This document shows positions 40,898 to 47,188 of a DNA stretch of 64,000 nt, one piece after another; position 1 is the first letter of the stretch; every line of letters begins with the position of its first letter. This DNA comes from Nocardioidaceae bacterium SCSIO 66511 (GTDB taxonomy: Bacteria > Actinomycetota > Actinomycetes > Propionibacteriales > Nocardioidaceae): NCBI GenBank assembly GCA_023100825.1, contig CP095846.1, forward strand, positions 620,001 to 684,000. Direction: 5' to 3'. Below the pieces are notes generated by a model. The model was not told the DNA's origin. It was given only the letters and a program-made list of their open reading frames with translations, and searched no databases. Made by a program: the position numbers and the translations under genes.

Positions 40898-41470
40898 GTG
40901 TACGTCGTCCGCTCGGCGGTGCTCGCCTGCGCCCTGGTCGCGTCCGTCGGTGGATGCGGTGCGGATGACGCCTCGCCGCAGCGGGTCTCGTACACAGCAG
41001 AGATCTCGAGTCCGCCAAAGGCGGGCACGGCCAAGGATGAACGGGTGTCCTTGAGCACCGAGACCTGCCCGGATTCCGACGGCGGAACACTCGTGGGGGT
41101 CGTGCCGGATGGTTGGCAGGTCGACTCCAGCGGAGCGGACTACTGCTCCTGGTCCCGCGGCACCTCGAACCTGACCTTCGAATACGGCGCCATCGACGGT
41201 GACCCGTACAAATGGCTCCTACTGCAGAGCAACACGGCGCAGATCGATGGCTCGATCCCCGGTTATGAGCTCATCCGGCAGACCAGCGACGCCGGCGGCG
41301 GACCGCTGTGGCACTACCAGTACGCGGTCGCCCGGGTCGACGGCAGCGTCTATGTCGACTCGCTCCATCTGTTCCGAGGCGAATGGCACGTGACGTACGA
41401 GGCGGATTCCGGCGACTACAACACCTACGTGGAGCGGGAGTTGACCCAGGCGCTGGACGCAACGGACTGA
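40898..41470 (+). CDS. Lipoprotein of unknown function
   Basis: 190 residues, GTG start five bases after the GNAT gene, so perhaps co-transcribed. The signal VRSAVLACALVASVGGC has a lipobox with Cys20. The mature domain of about 165 residues has an Asp/Gly/Trp-rich beta pattern (VPDGWQVDSSGADYCSWSRG; GPLWHYQYAVARVDG). No recognised domain. Confidence 0.72.
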   Translation: MYVVRSAVLACALVASVGGCGADDASPQRVSYTAEISSPPKAGTAKDERVSLSTETCPDSDGGTLVGVVPDGWQVDSSGADYCSWSRGTSNLTFEYGAIDGDPYKWLLLQSNTAQIDGSIPGYELIRQTSDAGGGPLWHYQYAVARVDGSVYVDSLHLFRGEWHVTYEADSGDYNTYVERELTQALDATD

Positions 41471-41501
41471 AATCTCGGGCTCGCGGAAATCACTCGGCGA
41501 A

Positions 41502-41548
41502 ACACCAGATATGGGTAGTTGCATCGCTGTGGTTTCCATATATGGTGA
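41502..41548 (+). promoter_or_regulatory. nrdAB promoter with tandem NrdR boxes
   Basis: ACACCAGATATGGGTA (41502-41517) and TTTCCATATATGGTGA (41533-41548) share a CCAnATATGG centre and are 31 bases apart, three helical turns, as in known NrdR box pairs. A -35 TTGCAT (41519-41524) and -10 TATGGT (41541-41546), 16 bases apart, fit between and over the boxes. Transcription would begin near 41553, right where the riboswitch starts. NrdR represses ribonucleotide reductase genes when dATP is high. Confidence 0.7.
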
Positions 41549-41555
41549 TCAAGCA

Positions 41556-41736
41556 GCTGGTTCGACCGGTCCCCCAGATCGGTCGTCGTAAGAGGGAACC
41601 CGGTGTGAATCCGGGACTGCCCCGCAGCGGTGAACGGGAACGACCGTCGTCAAGGCACTGGGTGCGCACCCGGGAAGCGACGACCAGTAGGCGCGCTGGA
41701 CGCAGCGCTGGCCCGTGAGTCCGAAGACCTGCCAGC
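41556..41736 (+). promoter_or_regulatory. Adenosylcobalamin riboswitch
   Basis: Conserved parts are present in order: GGGAACCCGGTGTGAATCC, then ACTGCCCCGCAGCGGTGAA, CAAGGCACTGG, and the B12 box GTCCGAAGACCTGCC. GCTGG at the 5' end (41556-41560) pairs with CCAGC (41732-41736) as helix P1. A following seven-pair hairpin (41739-41761) may belong to the expression platform. Such switches in front of class I nrd genes turn them off when B12 is available and the B12-dependent class II reductase can work, as described for Streptomyces nrdABS. Confidence 0.93.
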
Positions 41737-41862
41737 GCACCGCGCGTACGACATGCGCGGTGGTCCGCGGCCGCGTGGGACGGCCAGGGGACTCGGGTCA
41801 TGCCGTGCCCTCCCGACCCCATGCGCCGCGGGTTGCGCAGATAGCGACCGAGGGGTTCGAAC

Positions 41863-44388
41863 ATGGCTACCACCGACATCACCGTCGTCAAGCGCGACGG
41901 CTCCAAAGTGCCGTACGACGGCTACGAGATCGCCGCTTCGATCGAGGAGGCGAGCACCGGCCTGGACGACGCGGTCGCCCGAGCGACGCAGATTCAGTCC
42001 GAGCTGGAGATCGTGTTGTTCGACGGCATGACCAGCGAACAGCTGGACGAGGCCGTCATCTCCGTGGCGCTGCAGAACGTCAAGGACGATCCGGCCTTCG
42101 ACACTGTTGCCGCGGGACTGCTGACGAAGCTGCTGTACAAGCGCGCGTTCGGTGAGGGCAGTACGCATCTGGAGACGCGGAGCTTCCCGGGCCCCGCGTT
42201 CGTGGCGTACGTAGGGCGCGGGGTCGAGCTCGGACTGCTCGACACCCGACTCACGCAGCTGTTCGATCTCGAACGGCTCGGCGCGGCCATCGACCCCGCG
42301 CGCGACGACCTGCTGCGCTATATCGGAGTGCAGACGATGCGCAACCGGTACATGATCACGTCGCCCGACGGTACGCCGCTCGAGGTGCCGCAATTCTTCT
42401 GGATGCGAGTCGCCATGGGGCTGTCGCTGAACGAGGAGGATCCCACTGCCATCGCCTTGGCTCTGTACGACAAGCTCTCGCGGCTGGAGTACGTCGCAGC
42501 GGGTTCGACCCTCGTCAACGCAGGCACGTCGTACGCCCAGCTGTCGAACTGCTTCGTGATGCAGATGGAAGACGACATCGAGCACATCGCGAAGTCGATG
42601 CGCGACGTCATGTGGATCACCAAGGGCACCGGCGGGATCGGCTTGTCGGTCACCAAGCTGCGCAGCGAGGGCTCGCCGATCCGCAGTAACAACACGAAGT
42701 CGACGGGTCCCATCCCGTTCATGCACACGATCGACTCGACGCTGCGGGCCGTCTCGCGCGGCGGCAAGAAGTTCGGCGCGCTCTGCTTCTACCTGGAGAA
42801 CTGGCATCTCGACTTCGACCAGTTCCTCGATCTGCGGCAGAACTCCGGAGACCCGTATCGGCGTACGCGTACGGCCAACACCGCGGTGTGGATCTCCGAC
42901 GAGTTCATGAAGCGGGTGGCCGCCGATGACGACTGGTACCTCTTCGACCCGCTCGAGGTGCCGGATCTGCCTGAGCTCTACGGAGCCGCGTTCTCCAATC
43001 GTTACGCCGAGTACGTCGCACTGGCCGAGGCGGGTGAGCTGCGGGCGTACCGCAAGGTCCGCGCACGCGAGCAGTACCGCGCGATGCTGGTGTCGTTGCA
43101 GACGACATCGCATCCGTGGCTGACCTGGAAAGACACGATCAACACGCGAGCGCTCAACGACAACACCGGCACGATCCACCTGTCCAACCTGTGCACGGAG
43201 ATCTGCCTCCCGCAGGACCGCGACAACACCGCCGTGTGCAACCTCGCATCGGTCAACCTGTCGCGGCACCTCGTCGGCGAGCGAGGGGACCTGCGCATCG
43301 ACTGGGACCGCCTCGCCGAGTCGACTCGCCTGGCAGTACGCCAGCTCGACAACCTCGTGGACATCACGCTCTCGTCGGTTCCGGAGTCGGAGCACTCGAA
43401 CGATCTCAACCGCGCGGTCGGTCTCGGTGTCATGGGTTTCACCGACATCGTCGAGCGGCTCGGGTACGGGTACGAGAGCGAGCGGGCGTACGAGCTGATC
43501 GACCGGCTGATGGAGTTCATCAGCTGGCATGCGATCGACGCGAGCGCCGATCTGGCCCGCGAGCGCGGCGCGTACGCGAACTTCGAAGGCTCGGGTTGGA
43601 GCCGAGGGATTGTCCCGGTCGACACCCTGGACCGCCTCGCGGCAGACCGCGGTGCGCCCGTCGAGGTCGACCGCAGCACCCGCCTGGACTGGGAGTCGCT
43701 GCGCCGCAAGGTACGCGGAGGAATGCGCAACGCGACCCTGATGGCGATCGCACCGACCGCGTCGATCGGTCTGGTCGCCGGGACAACGCCGGGGCTCGAT
43801 CCGCAGTTCAGCCAGATCTTCAGCCGGTCGACGTCGTCGGGGAAGTTCCTCGAGGTCAACCGCAACCTGGTCGCCGATCTGCGCGAGCGCGGGTTGTGGG
43901 AGCAGGTACGCGAGGATCTGCTGCGCGCACAGGGCGATCTGTCGAAGCTCGAGTCCGTGCCGGACGATTTACAGCGCATCTACCGGACTTCGTTCCAGCT
44001 GTCGCCGTACGCGTTCCTCGAGGTGGCGGCGCGGGCGCAGAAGTGGATCGACCAGGCGATCAGCCGCAACATCTACCTGGCCGATCGTGATGTGGACGGC
44101 ATGGTCGACCTGTACGAGGCGGCATGGAAGCGCGGCGTGAAGACGACGTACTACCTGCACATGATGCCGCGGCACACCGCCGAGCAGAGCACAGTGAAGG
44201 TCAACAAGGCCGAGCAGCTCACTCCGGCCGGTGCCGGTCAACGCCGTGGTTTCGGGTTCGCGGCGGCCGCGTCGACGCCGGACGTACCGGAAGTGGTGCC
44301 GCCCGAGACGGTCCCGGTCGCGACCGTCGATGACCACACCTGCCCGATCGATCCGCAAGAGCGCCTGCAGTGCGACTCCTGCCAGTGA
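41863..44388 (+). CDS. nrdA: Class I ribonucleoside-diphosphate reductase, large subunit
   Basis: 841 residues. N-terminal ATP-cone (ITVVKRDGSKVPYDGYEI to about residue 95) for dATP/ATP control. Active-site cysteines: Cys230 (LSNCFV), Cys444 in SNLCTE with Asn442 and Glu446, and Cys459 (AVCNLA). A C-terminal redox pair lies in LQCDSCQ. Reduces ribonucleotides to deoxyribonucleotides together with the small subunit NrdB. GAGGGG precedes the ATG. The leader holds an adenosylcobalamin riboswitch and NrdR boxes. Stop to nrdB start is about 117 bases, mostly one large hairpin. Confidence 0.95.
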   Translation: MATTDITVVKRDGSKVPYDGYEIAASIEEASTGLDDAVARATQIQSELEIVLFDGMTSEQLDEAVISVALQNVKDDPAFDTVAAGLLTKLLYKRAFGEGSTHLETRSFPGPAFVAYVGRGVELGLLDTRLTQLFDLERLGAAIDPARDDLLRYIGVQTMRNRYMITSPDGTPLEVPQFFWMRVAMGLSLNEEDPTAIALALYDKLSRLEYVAAGSTLVNAGTSYAQLSNCFVMQMEDDIEHIAKSMRDVMWITKGTGGIGLSVTKLRSEGSPIRSNNTKSTGPIPFMHTIDSTLRAVSRGGKKFGALCFYLENWHLDFDQFLDLRQNSGDPYRRTRTANTAVWISDEFMKRVAADDDWYLFDPLEVPDLPELYGAAFSNRYAEYVALAEAGELRAYRKVRAREQYRAMLVSLQTTSHPWLTWKDTINTRALNDNTGTIHLSNLCTEICLPQDRDNTAVCNLASVNLSRHLVGERGDLRIDWDRLAESTRLAVRQLDNLVDITLSSVPESEHSNDLNRAVGLGVMGFTDIVERLGYGYESERAYELIDRLMEFISWHAIDASADLARERGAYANFEGSGWSRGIVPVDTLDRLAADRGAPVEVDRSTRLDWESLRRKVRGGMRNATLMAIAPTASIGLVAGTTPGLDPQFSQIFSRSTSSGKFLEVNRNLVADLRERGLWEQVREDLLRAQGDLSKLESVPDDLQRIYRTSFQLSPYAFLEVAARAQKWIDQAISRNIYLADRDVDGMVDLYEAAWKRGVKTTYYLHMMPRHTAEQSTVKVNKAEQLTPAGAGQRRGFGFAAAASTPDVPEVVPPETVPVATVDDHTCPIDPQERLQCDSCQ

Positions 44389-44417
44389 ACTGACCAGAAC
44401 CACCCAACCCCCACCCC

Positions 44418-44478
44418 GCTGGGCCGCACGTTTCGGCCCCATTTCGGCGAAATTTGGGGCCGAAACGTGCGGGCCAGC
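44418..44478. repeat. Long hairpin between nrdA and nrdB
   Basis: Arms of 24 bases around the shared core CCGCACGTTTCGGCCCCA pair with one mismatch, and the loop has a further TTTC/GAAA pairing, giving a 61-base structure. There is no T-run. It ends 27 bases before the nrdB TTG start. It could be a processing or attenuation site that sets the nrdA:nrdB ratio, or a dispersed palindromic element. Confidence 0.8.
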
Positions 44479-44505
44479 GGGCGTGGGCGACGTGAGGAGA
44501 GAACT

Positions 44506-45492
44506 TTGAGTACGAACGGAATTCTCGGGACCGGCATCGGCGAAGGCCTGCTGCTCAAACCGGTGACGTACGAATGGGCGTACGACCTCTACAACCAGGC
44601 CGTTGCGAACACCTGGTTCCCCAACGAGGTGCAGCTGGGCGAGGACCTCGGCGACTTCGCCACCATGAACGACGAGGAACGCCATGCGCTGACCTTCCTG
44701 ATGAGCTACTTCAACCCGAACGAGCTGCTGGTCAACAAGGCGCTCGCGTTCGGCGTCTATCCGTACGTCAACTCGGCCGAATGCCACCTGTACCTCGCCA
44801 AGCAGATGTGGGAAGAAGCCAACCACTGTATGGCGTTCGAGTACGTTCTCGAGACGTTCCCCATCGACCGCGAGCAGGCGTACGAGTCGCATCTGAGCGT
44901 GCCGTCGATGGCGGCCAAGGAGGAGTTCGAGATCCGCTTCATCAAGCGGATGACCGAGCAGACGCTCGACATCACCACCACAGAGGGCAAGCGCGACTTC
45001 GTACGCAACCTCGTTGCATACAACGTGATTCTCGAAGGCATCTGGTTCTACTCGGGCTTCATGGTGGCACTGTCGTTTCGGCAGCGGAACCTCCTGCGCA
45101 ACTTCGGCTCCCTGATCGAGTGGATCGTGCGTGACGAGAGCCTGCATCTGAAGTTCGGACTCAACCTGATCCTCACCGTGCTCGAGGAGAACCCCGATCT
45201 GCAGACTCCGGAGTTCGCCGCGGAGATTCGCCAGCTCATCCTCGACGGCGTCGCGATGGAGGAGCGTTACAACCGCGATCTGCTGCCCAAGGGGATCCTC
45301 GGGCTCAACGCCGACTACATCAACACCTACGTGCGATACCTCGCCGACCGTCGTCTCGAGGAGCTCGGGTTCGAGCCGGCGTACGGCGTTGCGAACCCGG
45401 CGAAGTGGATGGCGACCGCCAACGACACGTTGCAGCTCGTCAACTTCTTCGAGTCGACCAACACCAGTTACGAGGTGAACGCTCAGGCCTGA
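44506..45492 (+). CDS. nrdB: Ribonucleotide reductase small subunit, tyrosine-less (class Ic-like)
   Basis: 328 residues, TTG start seven bases after GAGGAG. Metal ligands by alignment: Glu73 (NPNELL), Glu104 and His107 (EEANH), Glu177 (ILEGIW), Glu211 and His214 (DESLH). The position of the radical tyrosine, four after His107, is Phe111, and the first ligand is Glu rather than Asp. All spacings equal those of the Chlamydia class Ic protein (89, 120, 123, 127, 193, 227, 230), which uses a Mn/Fe centre instead of a tyrosyl radical. It pairs with NrdA. Confidence 0.92.
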   Translation: MSTNGILGTGIGEGLLLKPVTYEWAYDLYNQAVANTWFPNEVQLGEDLGDFATMNDEERHALTFLMSYFNPNELLVNKALAFGVYPYVNSAECHLYLAKQMWEEANHCMAFEYVLETFPIDREQAYESHLSVPSMAAKEEFEIRFIKRMTEQTLDITTTEGKRDFVRNLVAYNVILEGIWFYSGFMVALSFRQRNLLRNFGSLIEWIVRDESLHLKFGLNLILTVLEENPDLQTPEFAAEIRQLILDGVAMEERYNRDLLPKGILGLNADYINTYVRYLADRRLEELGFEPAYGVANPAKWMATANDTLQLVNFFESTNTSYEVNAQA

Positions 45493-45542
45493 GCTCGTCC
45501 CGCGGGTCGGGCTCGGCATTGCTCCCGGTTCGGCAACGTGTT

Positions 45543-45573
45543 AGAACGTGCGCCAACTACTGGCGCACGTTCT
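45543..45573 (+). terminator. Hairpin terminator after nrdB
   Basis: A perfect 13-bp stem (AGAACGTGCGCCA) with a five-base loop, 51 bases after the nrdB stop. Confidence 0.7.
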
Positions 45574-45631
45574 GATGCGTGCTCCCTGCGGGTACGTATG
45601 GCCCGCGGCCGCCGAGTGAAGGAGAGCCGCC

Positions 45632-47188
45632 ATGTCACCCGATCAACTGACCCGCCGCCGCCTGCTCACCACTGCCGCCGGAGCGACCGCGGCGGCGCTC
45701 GTACCTGGAGTCGCCAGTGCGTCGCGTACGTCGGATCAGGCGCCCGCAGACCTCGTACTACACGGCGGCAACGTGTGGCCGGGCATGCGCGCCGGCCGGG
45801 TGCATGGCCCCGCGCTGCCCTGGTGCGACGCCGTAGCAGTACGCGGACAGCGGATCGTTGCTGTCGGACGCGACGCCGAGGTGCTGACCTGGGCCGGTAG
45901 GCGCACCCGCGTCGTCGACCTGGCCGGGCGCTTCGTCATGCCCGGGTTCCGTGATCAGCACACGCATCTGCTCGGCATGGCCTTCGCGGGCACGTCCGCA
46001 GAGGGCTACCGCCCGGCGTTCAACTGCTACGACCCACAGGCGGCGTTCGAGGGGCGCCGTCGCACCGGGCAGGGGCACGTACATCTGCATGAGCAGGGCA
46101 AGTCGCCGATGGATCAGTTCGGCGACGGTGAGGTCACCGACGAGCTCAAACAGAATCTGCTGACGATGCAGGACGAGCTCGCCAAACAAGGCATCACCAC
46201 GGTCGTGGAGGCGGGGATGCGCGACTTCTCGTTGTGGCGCGCGCTGATGGAGCTCGCCGAGGAGGACCGCCTCAAGGTGCGGTTCCTCGTCCGGGTCGCC
46301 TTCGGCGGCATGGAGCTGGCGGCCGAGCGTGGCCTACACACCGGCGTCGGCAACGAGTGGGTCAAGATCCTCGGCGTCAAGAACTACGCCGACGGCTGGC
46401 TCGGCCCGCGTACGTCGGCGCTGCGTGAGCCGTACTCCGACGACCCGTACGGCTTTCCTCCCGAAGGGATCCTGTTCCTCGACCAGGATCGCGCCGACCG
46501 CGACATCGCCCGTGCCCGCGAGCTCGGGTTCAACGTCACCGCGCATGCCATCGGAGACCGGGGCGTCGAGACCGCGCTCACCGCGTACGAGCGCGCGGGC
46601 GTCACTCCGGCCGACCGCTGGGCGCTGGAGCACGTGCAGGTCGTCGGTGACGACCTGGTCGACCGGATGGCCGCCGATGGTGTGATCGCGAGCTATCAGC
46701 TGAGCTTCGCCACGACCGATGCCCGCTTCGCCCAGGACGCGCTCGGTAAGCCAAGGCTCCGCGAGACGGCCTATCGCTGGGCGACCATGCAGCGCAGGGG
46801 CGTACGACTGGCGGGCGGCTCCGACGTCGATGTTGAGGTCGTGGATCCGCTGTGGGGTCTGCAGCGGGCCGTGACCAGGCAGGACTTCGACGGCTTCCCG
46901 CGGGGTGGCTTCCGCCGTAGCGAGGCGCTCGGCCTGCGCGACACCCTTCGTACGCTCACCTCCGACGCGGCGTACGCGAGCCTCGAGGACCACGAGCGCG
47001 GCACCATCGAGGTGGGCAACTACGCCGACCTCGTCGTACTGCGCGAGAACCTCCTTCGCATCCCGCATGATCGGATCGCGTTCTCCACCAGGGAGATGAC
47101 GATCACGAACGGCAGGATCGCCTCGGAGGAGTCGGTTACGTACCCGCCGGACAAGGCCGCGACGTGCGACCCGTACCCGGATGAGTAG
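45632..47188 (+). CDS. Tat-exported amidohydrolase, YtcJ-like
   Basis: 518 residues. Twin-arginine signal with TRRRLLTTAAGATAAALVPGVASA. Metal-dependent TIM-barrel hydrolase: GRFVMPGFRDQHTH near residue 100 provides HxH, then KILGVKNYADGWLGP, FNVTAHAIGDRGVE, LEHVQVV and LAGGSDVDVE. The C-terminal return strand is IEVGNYADLVVL. The family cleaves C-N bonds of various substrates. It lies 60 bases upstream of the agmatine genes and may be part of that unit, but a link is not shown by sequence. Confidence 0.85.
   Translation: MSPDQLTRRRLLTTAAGATAAALVPGVASASRTSDQAPADLVLHGGNVWPGMRAGRVHGPALPWCDAVAVRGQRIVAVGRDAEVLTWAGRRTRVVDLAGRFVMPGFRDQHTHLLGMAFAGTSAEGYRPAFNCYDPQAAFEGRRRTGQGHVHLHEQGKSPMDQFGDGEVTDELKQNLLTMQDELAKQGITTVVEAGMRDFSLWRALMELAEEDRLKVRFLVRVAFGGMELAAERGLHTGVGNEWVKILGVKNYADGWLGPRTSALREPYSDDPYGFPPEGILFLDQDRADRDIARARELGFNVTAHAIGDRGVETALTAYERAGVTPADRWALEHVQVVGDDLVDRMAADGVIASYQLSFATTDARFAQDALGKPRLRETAYRWATMQRRGVRLAGGSDVDVEVVDPLWGLQRAVTRQDFDGFPRGGFRRSEALGLRDTLRTLTSDAAYASLEDHERGTIEVGNYADLVVLRENLLRIPHDRIAFSTREMTITNGRIASEESVTYPPDKAATCDPYPDE

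Follow-up and report, generated by a model that had tools for sequence, protein, structure and literature searches.

A tyrosine-less class Ic-type ribonucleotide reductase R2 subunit encoded behind a B12 riboswitch in an actinobacterium with a class II partner

To our knowledge, the biochemistry of class Ic ribonucleotide reductases is known almost only from Chlamydia. Tropheryma whipplei is an actinobacterium. It has been tabulated as class Ic (PMC4009431), and PDB entry 6y2n is a solved R2 of a type that occurs in the host order considered here, so that actinobacteria were already known to include class Ic. R2 subunits are assigned from the residue at the radical site and the first metal ligand, with Phe/Glu denoting class Ic, Tyr/Asp classes Ia and Ib, and Tyr/Glu class Id (PMC8463856). 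A further residue, Tyr222, is reported to be conserved among class Ic R2 proteins (R2c) and to relay the electron of activation (PMC4118035). A subgroup of class Id has a Gly-to-Lys substitution four residues after the first ligand (Glu170/Lys174 in L. blandensis), which is described as lining an oxidant channel, proposed to be for superoxide (PMC6754362). With regard to regulation, the class Ia nrdABS of Streptomyces is described as having a B12 riboswitch and a class II partner, NrdJ (PMC4991794).

We have analysed nrdB and its neighbours in Nocardioidaceae bacterium SCSIO 66511. The window, by which we mean the whole stretch of DNA under analysis, comprises 64,000 nucleotides (positions 620,001 to 684,000 of contig CP095846.1), and the locus within it is organized as follows.

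41502-41517, no strand assigned: NrdR-box-like site 1 (ACACCAGATATGGGTA), pair score 20, spacing 31
41533-41548, no strand assigned: NrdR-box-like site 2 (TTTCCATATATGGTGA), overlapping the first bases of the Rfam riboswitch match
41541-41750, + strand: cobalamin riboswitch aptamer, RF00174, model positions 1-189 (full), 92.4 bits
41863-44388, + strand: nrdA, R1 subunit, 841 amino acids, with an ATP cone, the motifs SNCFV, NLCTE and AVCN, a Tyr-Tyr pair and a C-terminal CxxC
44420-44492, no strand assigned: palindrome in the nrdA-nrdB gap, an interspersed genome repeat with an RNA fold of -75.7 kcal/mol (z -7.4)
44506-45492, + strand: nrdB, R2 subunit, 328 amino acids from a TTG start, NCBIfam NF007186 at 397 bits (cut-off 237)

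The nrdB frame is open. Its TTG start is preceded by GAGGAG and is also the start in the relative G001, the NrdB of which is 97% identical; a GTG located 39 bases upstream, giving a protein of 341 amino acids, is also possible. A Pfam profile search scored NrdB at 242 bits against PF00268, the sole match to that profile at E <= 0.001 in the 4.6-Mb genome. The NCBIfam model PRK07209, which we take to represent the Chlamydia-type R2, gave 292.9 bits, under its cut-off of 309. The palindrome that separates nrdA from nrdB has 64 matches when both genome strands are counted (being palindromic, it matches most places twice) and is probably not part of the mechanism. The gap in G001 holds a different palindrome, and by eye only the outer part is common to the two.

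The identity of the metal-site residues was established by direct reading of the translation (Glu73, Glu104, His107, Phe111, Glu177, Glu211 and His214) and by a phmmer alignment to the Chlamydia trachomatis protein (1syy), in which they stand opposite Glu89, Glu120, His123, Phe127, Glu193, Glu227 and His230 with a constant offset of 16. The entry 2ani, titled as the F127Y mutant, provides an independent anchor, as its tyrosine faces Phe111 of NrdB. A first-pass annotation made from the letters alone had held that NrdB lacks the radical tyrosine, that its first ligand is Glu rather than Asp, and that the phenylalanine and all six ligands are spaced as in the Chlamydia class Ic protein. The alignments bear out all of this: the six ligands are present, the first of them Glu, and Phe111 occupies the radical site. 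The codons of particular interest are the following.

44722-44724, + strand: Glu73, first metal ligand (Glu instead of Asp), from alignment and relatives
44734-44739, + strand: Asn77-Lys78, pair specific to the clade, one turn of the helix past the first ligand, in 80/80 kept loci
44836-44838, + strand: Phe111 (TTC), position of the radical tyrosine, from the phmmer alignment to 1syy and conserved in relatives
45121-45123, + strand: Trp206, position of Chlamydia Tyr222, from alignment and relatives

Since NrdB has the Phe/Glu pair, it falls into class Ic by the published rule (PMC8463856). An AlphaFold model of NrdB, derived from 44 aligned sequences, has a pLDDT of 87.6 and a pTM of 0.87, with residues 306-328 uncertain. 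When compared with the PDB the model finds the Chlamydia NrdB first (4m1i; TM 0.88, r.m.s.d. 1.3 Å, 36% identity). Entry 6y2n, presumably from Saccharopolyspora erythraea, comes second by sequence and by fold, and other folds follow at much weaker E-values. The class Ic-type signature proposed in the first-pass annotation thus stands, the Phe/Glu pair being joined by the Chlamydia Mn/Fe NrdB as both the nearest solved sequence and the nearest fold, and we consider the description of NrdB as a tyrosine-less class Ic-type R2 to be well supported. NrdB has in common with the Chlamydia R2c (1syy, 4m1i and 4d8f) the six ligands, the phenylalanine, the first-ligand glutamate, the Trp/Asp/Tyr path and the predicted fold. 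It differs, at 34-36% identity, in carrying Trp206 for Tyr222 and Asn77-Lys78 for Gly-Asn at positions 93-94.

Of the 118 genomes compared, ours among them, 50 give R2 matches at E <= 0.001, including weak ones. An intact R2 with 82-100% identity is found in 13 genomes (own included), and all 13 display Phe/Glu; the 12 close relatives also keep the ligands and path residues without exception. When two seven-residue patterns were run against 84,980 species genomes, 477 relatives emerged, and the best 80 of them were kept as named loci. All of these best 80 share Trp37, Glu73, Glu104, His107, Phe111 and Glu177, together with Trp206, Asp210, Glu211, His214 and Tyr322. The conservation of Glu104 and His107 is partly selected for, because both lie inside one search pattern; Phe111, Glu73 and Trp206 lie outside both patterns. 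Comparison with actinobacterial NrdB sequences therefore agrees with the first reading of this gene, and the recurrence of Phe/Glu in 12/12 intact close relatives and in the best 80 of 477 loci indicates that no sequencing slip is involved. The 71 loci that were sorted by family include Nocardioidaceae, Microbacteriaceae, Cellulomonadaceae, Demequinaceae and Ornithinimicrobiaceae. Across 40 aligned R2s, some of them from plasmids and phages, Glu is paired with Phe or Leu in 24/24 cases and Asp with Tyr in 16/16, with no mixing. Three R2s from other actinobacterial families (L170, L171 and L174) combine a first-ligand Glu with Leu at the radical site.

The second sphere is where the clade departs from described proteins. 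Helix B reads Glu73-Leu-Leu-Val-Asn77-Lys78 in every one of the 80 kept loci (best 80 of 477). The other actinobacterial R2s sampled comprise 30 of the 43 that matched when 396 genomes were searched, plus the R2s of the host order; in these the +4 residue is Ala, Gly or Ser and the +5 residue Asn or Asp, apart from one NrdF with Gly-Thr. Distant phage and plasmid Tyr/Asp rows are variable at these positions, one with Asn-Glu and another with Asn-Thr. Tyr222, a conserved trait of R2c, is replaced throughout the clade by Trp206, which is found in 80/80 kept loci (best 80 of 477) and 13/13 close-clade R2s. In the host order, Tyr/Asp R2s have Trp at this position in six of seven cases, the seventh, from genome G112 and an NrdF by its family model, having Leu. 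The 6y2n-type R2s of the same order resemble NrdB in the Phe/Glu pair, the predicted fold and a B12 riboswitch before nrdA (12/17 regions). They differ in that position 206 is Tyr and positions 77-78 are Ala-Asn in 17/17, they are 32-36% identical and they occupy a separate branch. The class Id R2 (NrdBi) also has Glu as its first ligand and a substitution at first ligand +4, but the likeness of Asn77-Lys78 to that system is a lead only because the lysine here is at +5. Equating Lys78 with the class Id lysine was considered and dropped, as the published Glu170, Lys174 and Glu200 put that lysine four residues after the first ligand and give a ligand spacing of 30 (PMC6754362).

We found no description of the Asn-Lys/Trp variant in open-licence PubMed Central. 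There is a small but appreciable chance that this clade, which extends over Nocardioidaceae, Microbacteriaceae, Cellulomonadaceae, Demequinaceae and others, constitutes a distinct subclass of tyrosine-less R2 with a metal pair that is assembled or reduced by an undescribed route. The polar and charged turn of helix B beside metal 1 might then be suited to another metal pair or to an oxidant that is not O2, with Trp replacing the electron-feeding Tyr. In either case, a widespread actinobacterial clade that combines a class Ic first sphere with fixed second-sphere differences offers a natural test of the residues that govern metal choice and activation, and the second-sphere variant is the part of this work that merits experiment.

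Turning to the control of the operon, the first-pass annotation had coupled the tyrosine-less NrdB to a B12 riboswitch. The Rfam match (41541-41750, + strand, 92.4 bits) lies before nrdA, as that proposal requires. NrdA itself carries motifs to which we assign the customary catalytic roles by assumption. The two NrdR-box-like sites were scored with what we take to be the NrdR box consensus, and when the leader was shuffled 2000 times in two-base blocks the pair score of 20 was reached 7 times, which makes this a middling match. Tandem NrdR boxes are located about 31 bp apart in Streptomyces-type nrdAB, and this spacing is observed between the sites at 41502 and 41533. Of 60 leaders from relatives, 29 contain a pair that reaches the threshold of 21 and lies 85-127 bases upstream of the riboswitch core, compared with 0.05 expected from single-base shuffles; the 60 include a few genomes twice (L080/L124 and L048/L122). 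The pair in the window, 100 bases before the core, scores below this threshold and is not one of the 29. A search of 41300-45700 for sigma-70 promoters and intrinsic terminators gave none. Two further cobalamin riboswitches are present in the genome (G000:C1:3920261-3920464, 104.6 bits, and 4268276-4268338, 45.4 bits). In an uncultured Serinicoccus (G140; L061/L225) the nrdA barrel match is split (C2:89263-90654 and 90677-90880), and the adjoining class Ic-type nrdB is intact.

The second large subunit of the genome is a class II NrdJ, which matches NF005122 at 1597 bits with a start codon of our choice. NrdR is encoded directly upstream of nrdJ (TIGR00244, 168.6 bits, cut-off 124.65). The class II partner goes beyond the earlier annotation, which left out NrdJ. 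Each of the 13 close-clade genomes (own included) has a second barrel match with a score like that of NrdJ; the class was confirmed for our own genome and, by identity, for two others (L197 and L206). Borovok 2006 is said to be the reference for the corresponding Streptomyces arrangement of nrdABS, B12 riboswitch and NrdJ. The likeness to that arrangement consists of the B12 riboswitch before nrdAB and the class II partner; the Streptomyces R2 is called class Ia, whereas NrdB here has Phe/Glu. We regard the joining of B12 control to this R2 chemistry as real, and a Streptomyces-type logic with a class II partner as likely. A search of open-licence PubMed Central found no report of a class Ic R2 combined with a B12 riboswitch.

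The distribution of the riboswitch was examined in the host order by scanning 40 fetched regions with Rfam. A cobalamin riboswitch is present in all 13 regions of the window type (own included; 12/12 intact close relatives) and in five of six Tyr/Asp nrdAB regions, the sixth being without a leader because the contig breaks off within nrdA. It was absent, by Rfam, from the region of genome G048, where nrdB is broken, and from the class Ib region of G112. When the 6y2n-type regions are added, the same switch serves three R2 types in this order, namely Tyr/Asp, Phe/Glu with Tyr206 and Phe/Glu with Trp206, which suggests that its presence follows the class II partner rather than the type of radical chemistry.

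For the 80 kept loci, nine with less than 3.5 kb upstream were dropped, and the remaining 71 were scored with a riboswitch pattern. This was positive in 29/71, compared with 2/71 on the other strand and 1/71 downstream as controls. Rfam was run on all 42 pattern-negative loci, giving one positive (L116) and 41 negatives, and among the 29 pattern-positive loci on L087 only, which was positive. Among these 71 of the best 80, NrdJ is present in the genomes of 29 of the 30 riboswitch-bearing loci and of one of the 41 others, the exceptions being L087, a metagenome-assembled genome (MAG), and L045. Only NrdJ of the window type was counted (77-89% identical, three also scanned against NCBIfam); the class II gene of L091, another MAG, is a distant one on a 5-kb contig, and this genome was placed among those lacking NrdJ. 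In six of the 41 riboswitch-negative cases family models identify the second large subunit as class Ib NrdE. The riboswitch is found in 0/27 Microbacteriaceae, 0/9 Demequinaceae and 14/14 Nocardioidaceae.

A Fisher test of the association between riboswitch and NrdJ gives p = 1.3e-17, a value that ignores kinship in a split that follows families. On the tree there are three changes of riboswitch state and four of NrdJ state, with two supported independent pairs (three on all branches). In one of the two supported pairs NrdJ is concordant and in the other it shows no difference (sign test p = 1). Because the changes are few and only two independent pairs are supported, the Fisher value is no test of linkage, and we describe the association as a strong pattern.

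Some relatives appear to be losing class I. In G048 (L132) nrdB is in broken pieces, the region has no match to a class I large subunit and the one barrel match in the genome is NrdJ-like. G076 and G089 (L130 and L131) have an open nrdA (827 and 833 amino acids) downstream of a cobalamin riboswitch that scores 114.9 and 115.8 bits, respectively. Their NrdA has lost the C-terminal CxxC, and the genomes have an NrdJ-like match and no R2 match, which leaves an orphan class I large subunit. Class I would seem to be dispensable where NrdJ works.

We propose that nrdAB encodes a class Ic-type ribonucleotide reductase in which O2 would oxidize a dimetal site, most likely with Mn at site 1 and Fe at site 2. 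Having no radical tyrosine, the protein would store the oxidizing equivalent on the metal pair itself, probably as Mn(IV)/Fe(III). From there the equivalent would travel via Trp37/Asp210 and Tyr322 to the NrdA cysteine. Trp37, Asp210 and the C-terminal Tyr322 are present in NrdB and in all of the best 80 of 477 loci, and we assume that they play these path roles. The roles of Trp51 and Tyr222 in the Chlamydia protein are taken from PMC4118035. Trp206, in place of that tyrosine, may deliver the activation electron. NrdR would limit nrdAB transcription, and the leader riboswitch would shut nrdAB off when adenosylcobalamin is plentiful, as we propose that NrdJ, a B12-dependent class II enzyme encoded behind nrdR, then suffices. 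The Mn(IV)/Fe(III) cofactor predicted in the first-pass annotation is likely; since Trp206 and Asn77-Lys78 depart from R2c in the second sphere, we infer it by transfer from Chlamydia. Taken as a whole, a class Ic-type Mn/Fe NrdB under NrdR and B12-riboswitch control with NrdJ as partner is the explanation that we consider probable. If it is correct, dNTPs could be made via cobalt (B12) or via manganese plus iron, and the leader would choose between the two routes.

The nature of the cofactor invites other readings. NrdB might be a tyrosine-less protein with a class Id-like Mn2(IV,III) centre, assembled with superoxide or peroxide, in which Asn77 and Lys78 shape the entry of the oxidant. Class Id shares the first-ligand Glu, and its channel-lining lysine is at +4 (PMC6754362). 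The clade alters this same +4 position, from a small residue to Asn77, and adds Lys at +5 in 80/80 kept loci; the Asn-Lys pair is absent from all other R2s aligned (the actinobacterial sample, the 40-row set and the host order). Nevertheless, we think such a centre rather unlikely, as class Id is described as carrying Tyr, not Phe, and an NrdA without the ATP cone (PMC8463856) that is present here. The lysine is also displaced by one residue, so that it may point away from the site, and the ligand spacing of 30 in class Id (Glu170-Glu200) is 31 in NrdB (PMC6754362). An Fe/Fe enzyme that carries its oxidant on the metals and has no need of Mn would look identical, since Fe and Mn are indistinguishable from sequence, but it is improbable given that high activity of the Chlamydia R2c is reported to require the mixed pair (PMC4118035).

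Other readings would alter the function of NrdB more deeply. If the enzyme were class Ia-like, the radical could reside on Trp102, Trp180, Trp206 or a nearby Tyr; the three tryptophans are close to ligands in sequence, and Trp206 is common to six of seven Tyr/Asp R2s aligned from the host order. However, we know of no R2 that rests its radical on Trp, and the paired Asp/Tyr versus Glu/Phe states and the Chlamydia-like fold fit storage on the metals, which makes a radical on another residue decidedly improbable. That nrdB is decaying and tolerates loss of the tyrosine finds some encouragement in the host order, where nrdAB is being lost (the broken nrdB of G048; G076 and G089 without an R2 match). 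The frame here is open and 97% identical to that of G001, and ligands and path residues are kept in 12/12 intact close relatives, so we judge decay very improbable. Finally, the R2-like ligand-binding oxidases (R2lox) include Mn/Fe proteins without a radical tyrosine (PMC4118035), but NrdB adjoins an open nrdA, possesses the C-terminal Tyr322, a residue that R2lox proteins lack, and reaches only 76.9 against the cut-off of 194 with the best R2lox model. We find it scarcely credible that NrdB is such an oxidase and not a reductase subunit.

With NrdB taken as class Ic-type, the origin of its Phe/Glu pair can be considered. The window clade is recovered as a single group (100/100), and its nearest neighbours, at 96/99, are L160/L162, which are Phe/Glu R2s from another actinobacterial family. 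In the best 40-row tree, for which ten plasmid and phage R2s were added and ten other rows removed, the clade sits in its own lineage and the Glu/non-Tyr label needs two changes. A single group of all Glu/non-Tyr R2s is not on this tree, but the AU test does not reject it (p-AU 0.379), and long outgroup branches weaken the tree. An apparent convergence of Phe/Glu (two changes on the first tree) was rejected as an artefact of scoring three Glu/Leu rows apart; on a tree without those rows the single Phe/Glu change is trivial. The R2 of L190, a record of Acinetobacter phage MD-2021a, has Tyr/Asp and is sister to the 6y2n-type rows (100/99). The two states may therefore switch within a lineage, and L190 with the 6y2n-type R2s provides a close pair in which to compare them. 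On plasmid p_1 of Phyllobacterium sp. 628 (L188), a Phe/Glu-type nrdAB lies beside cobF and metH, a B12-related neighbourhood.
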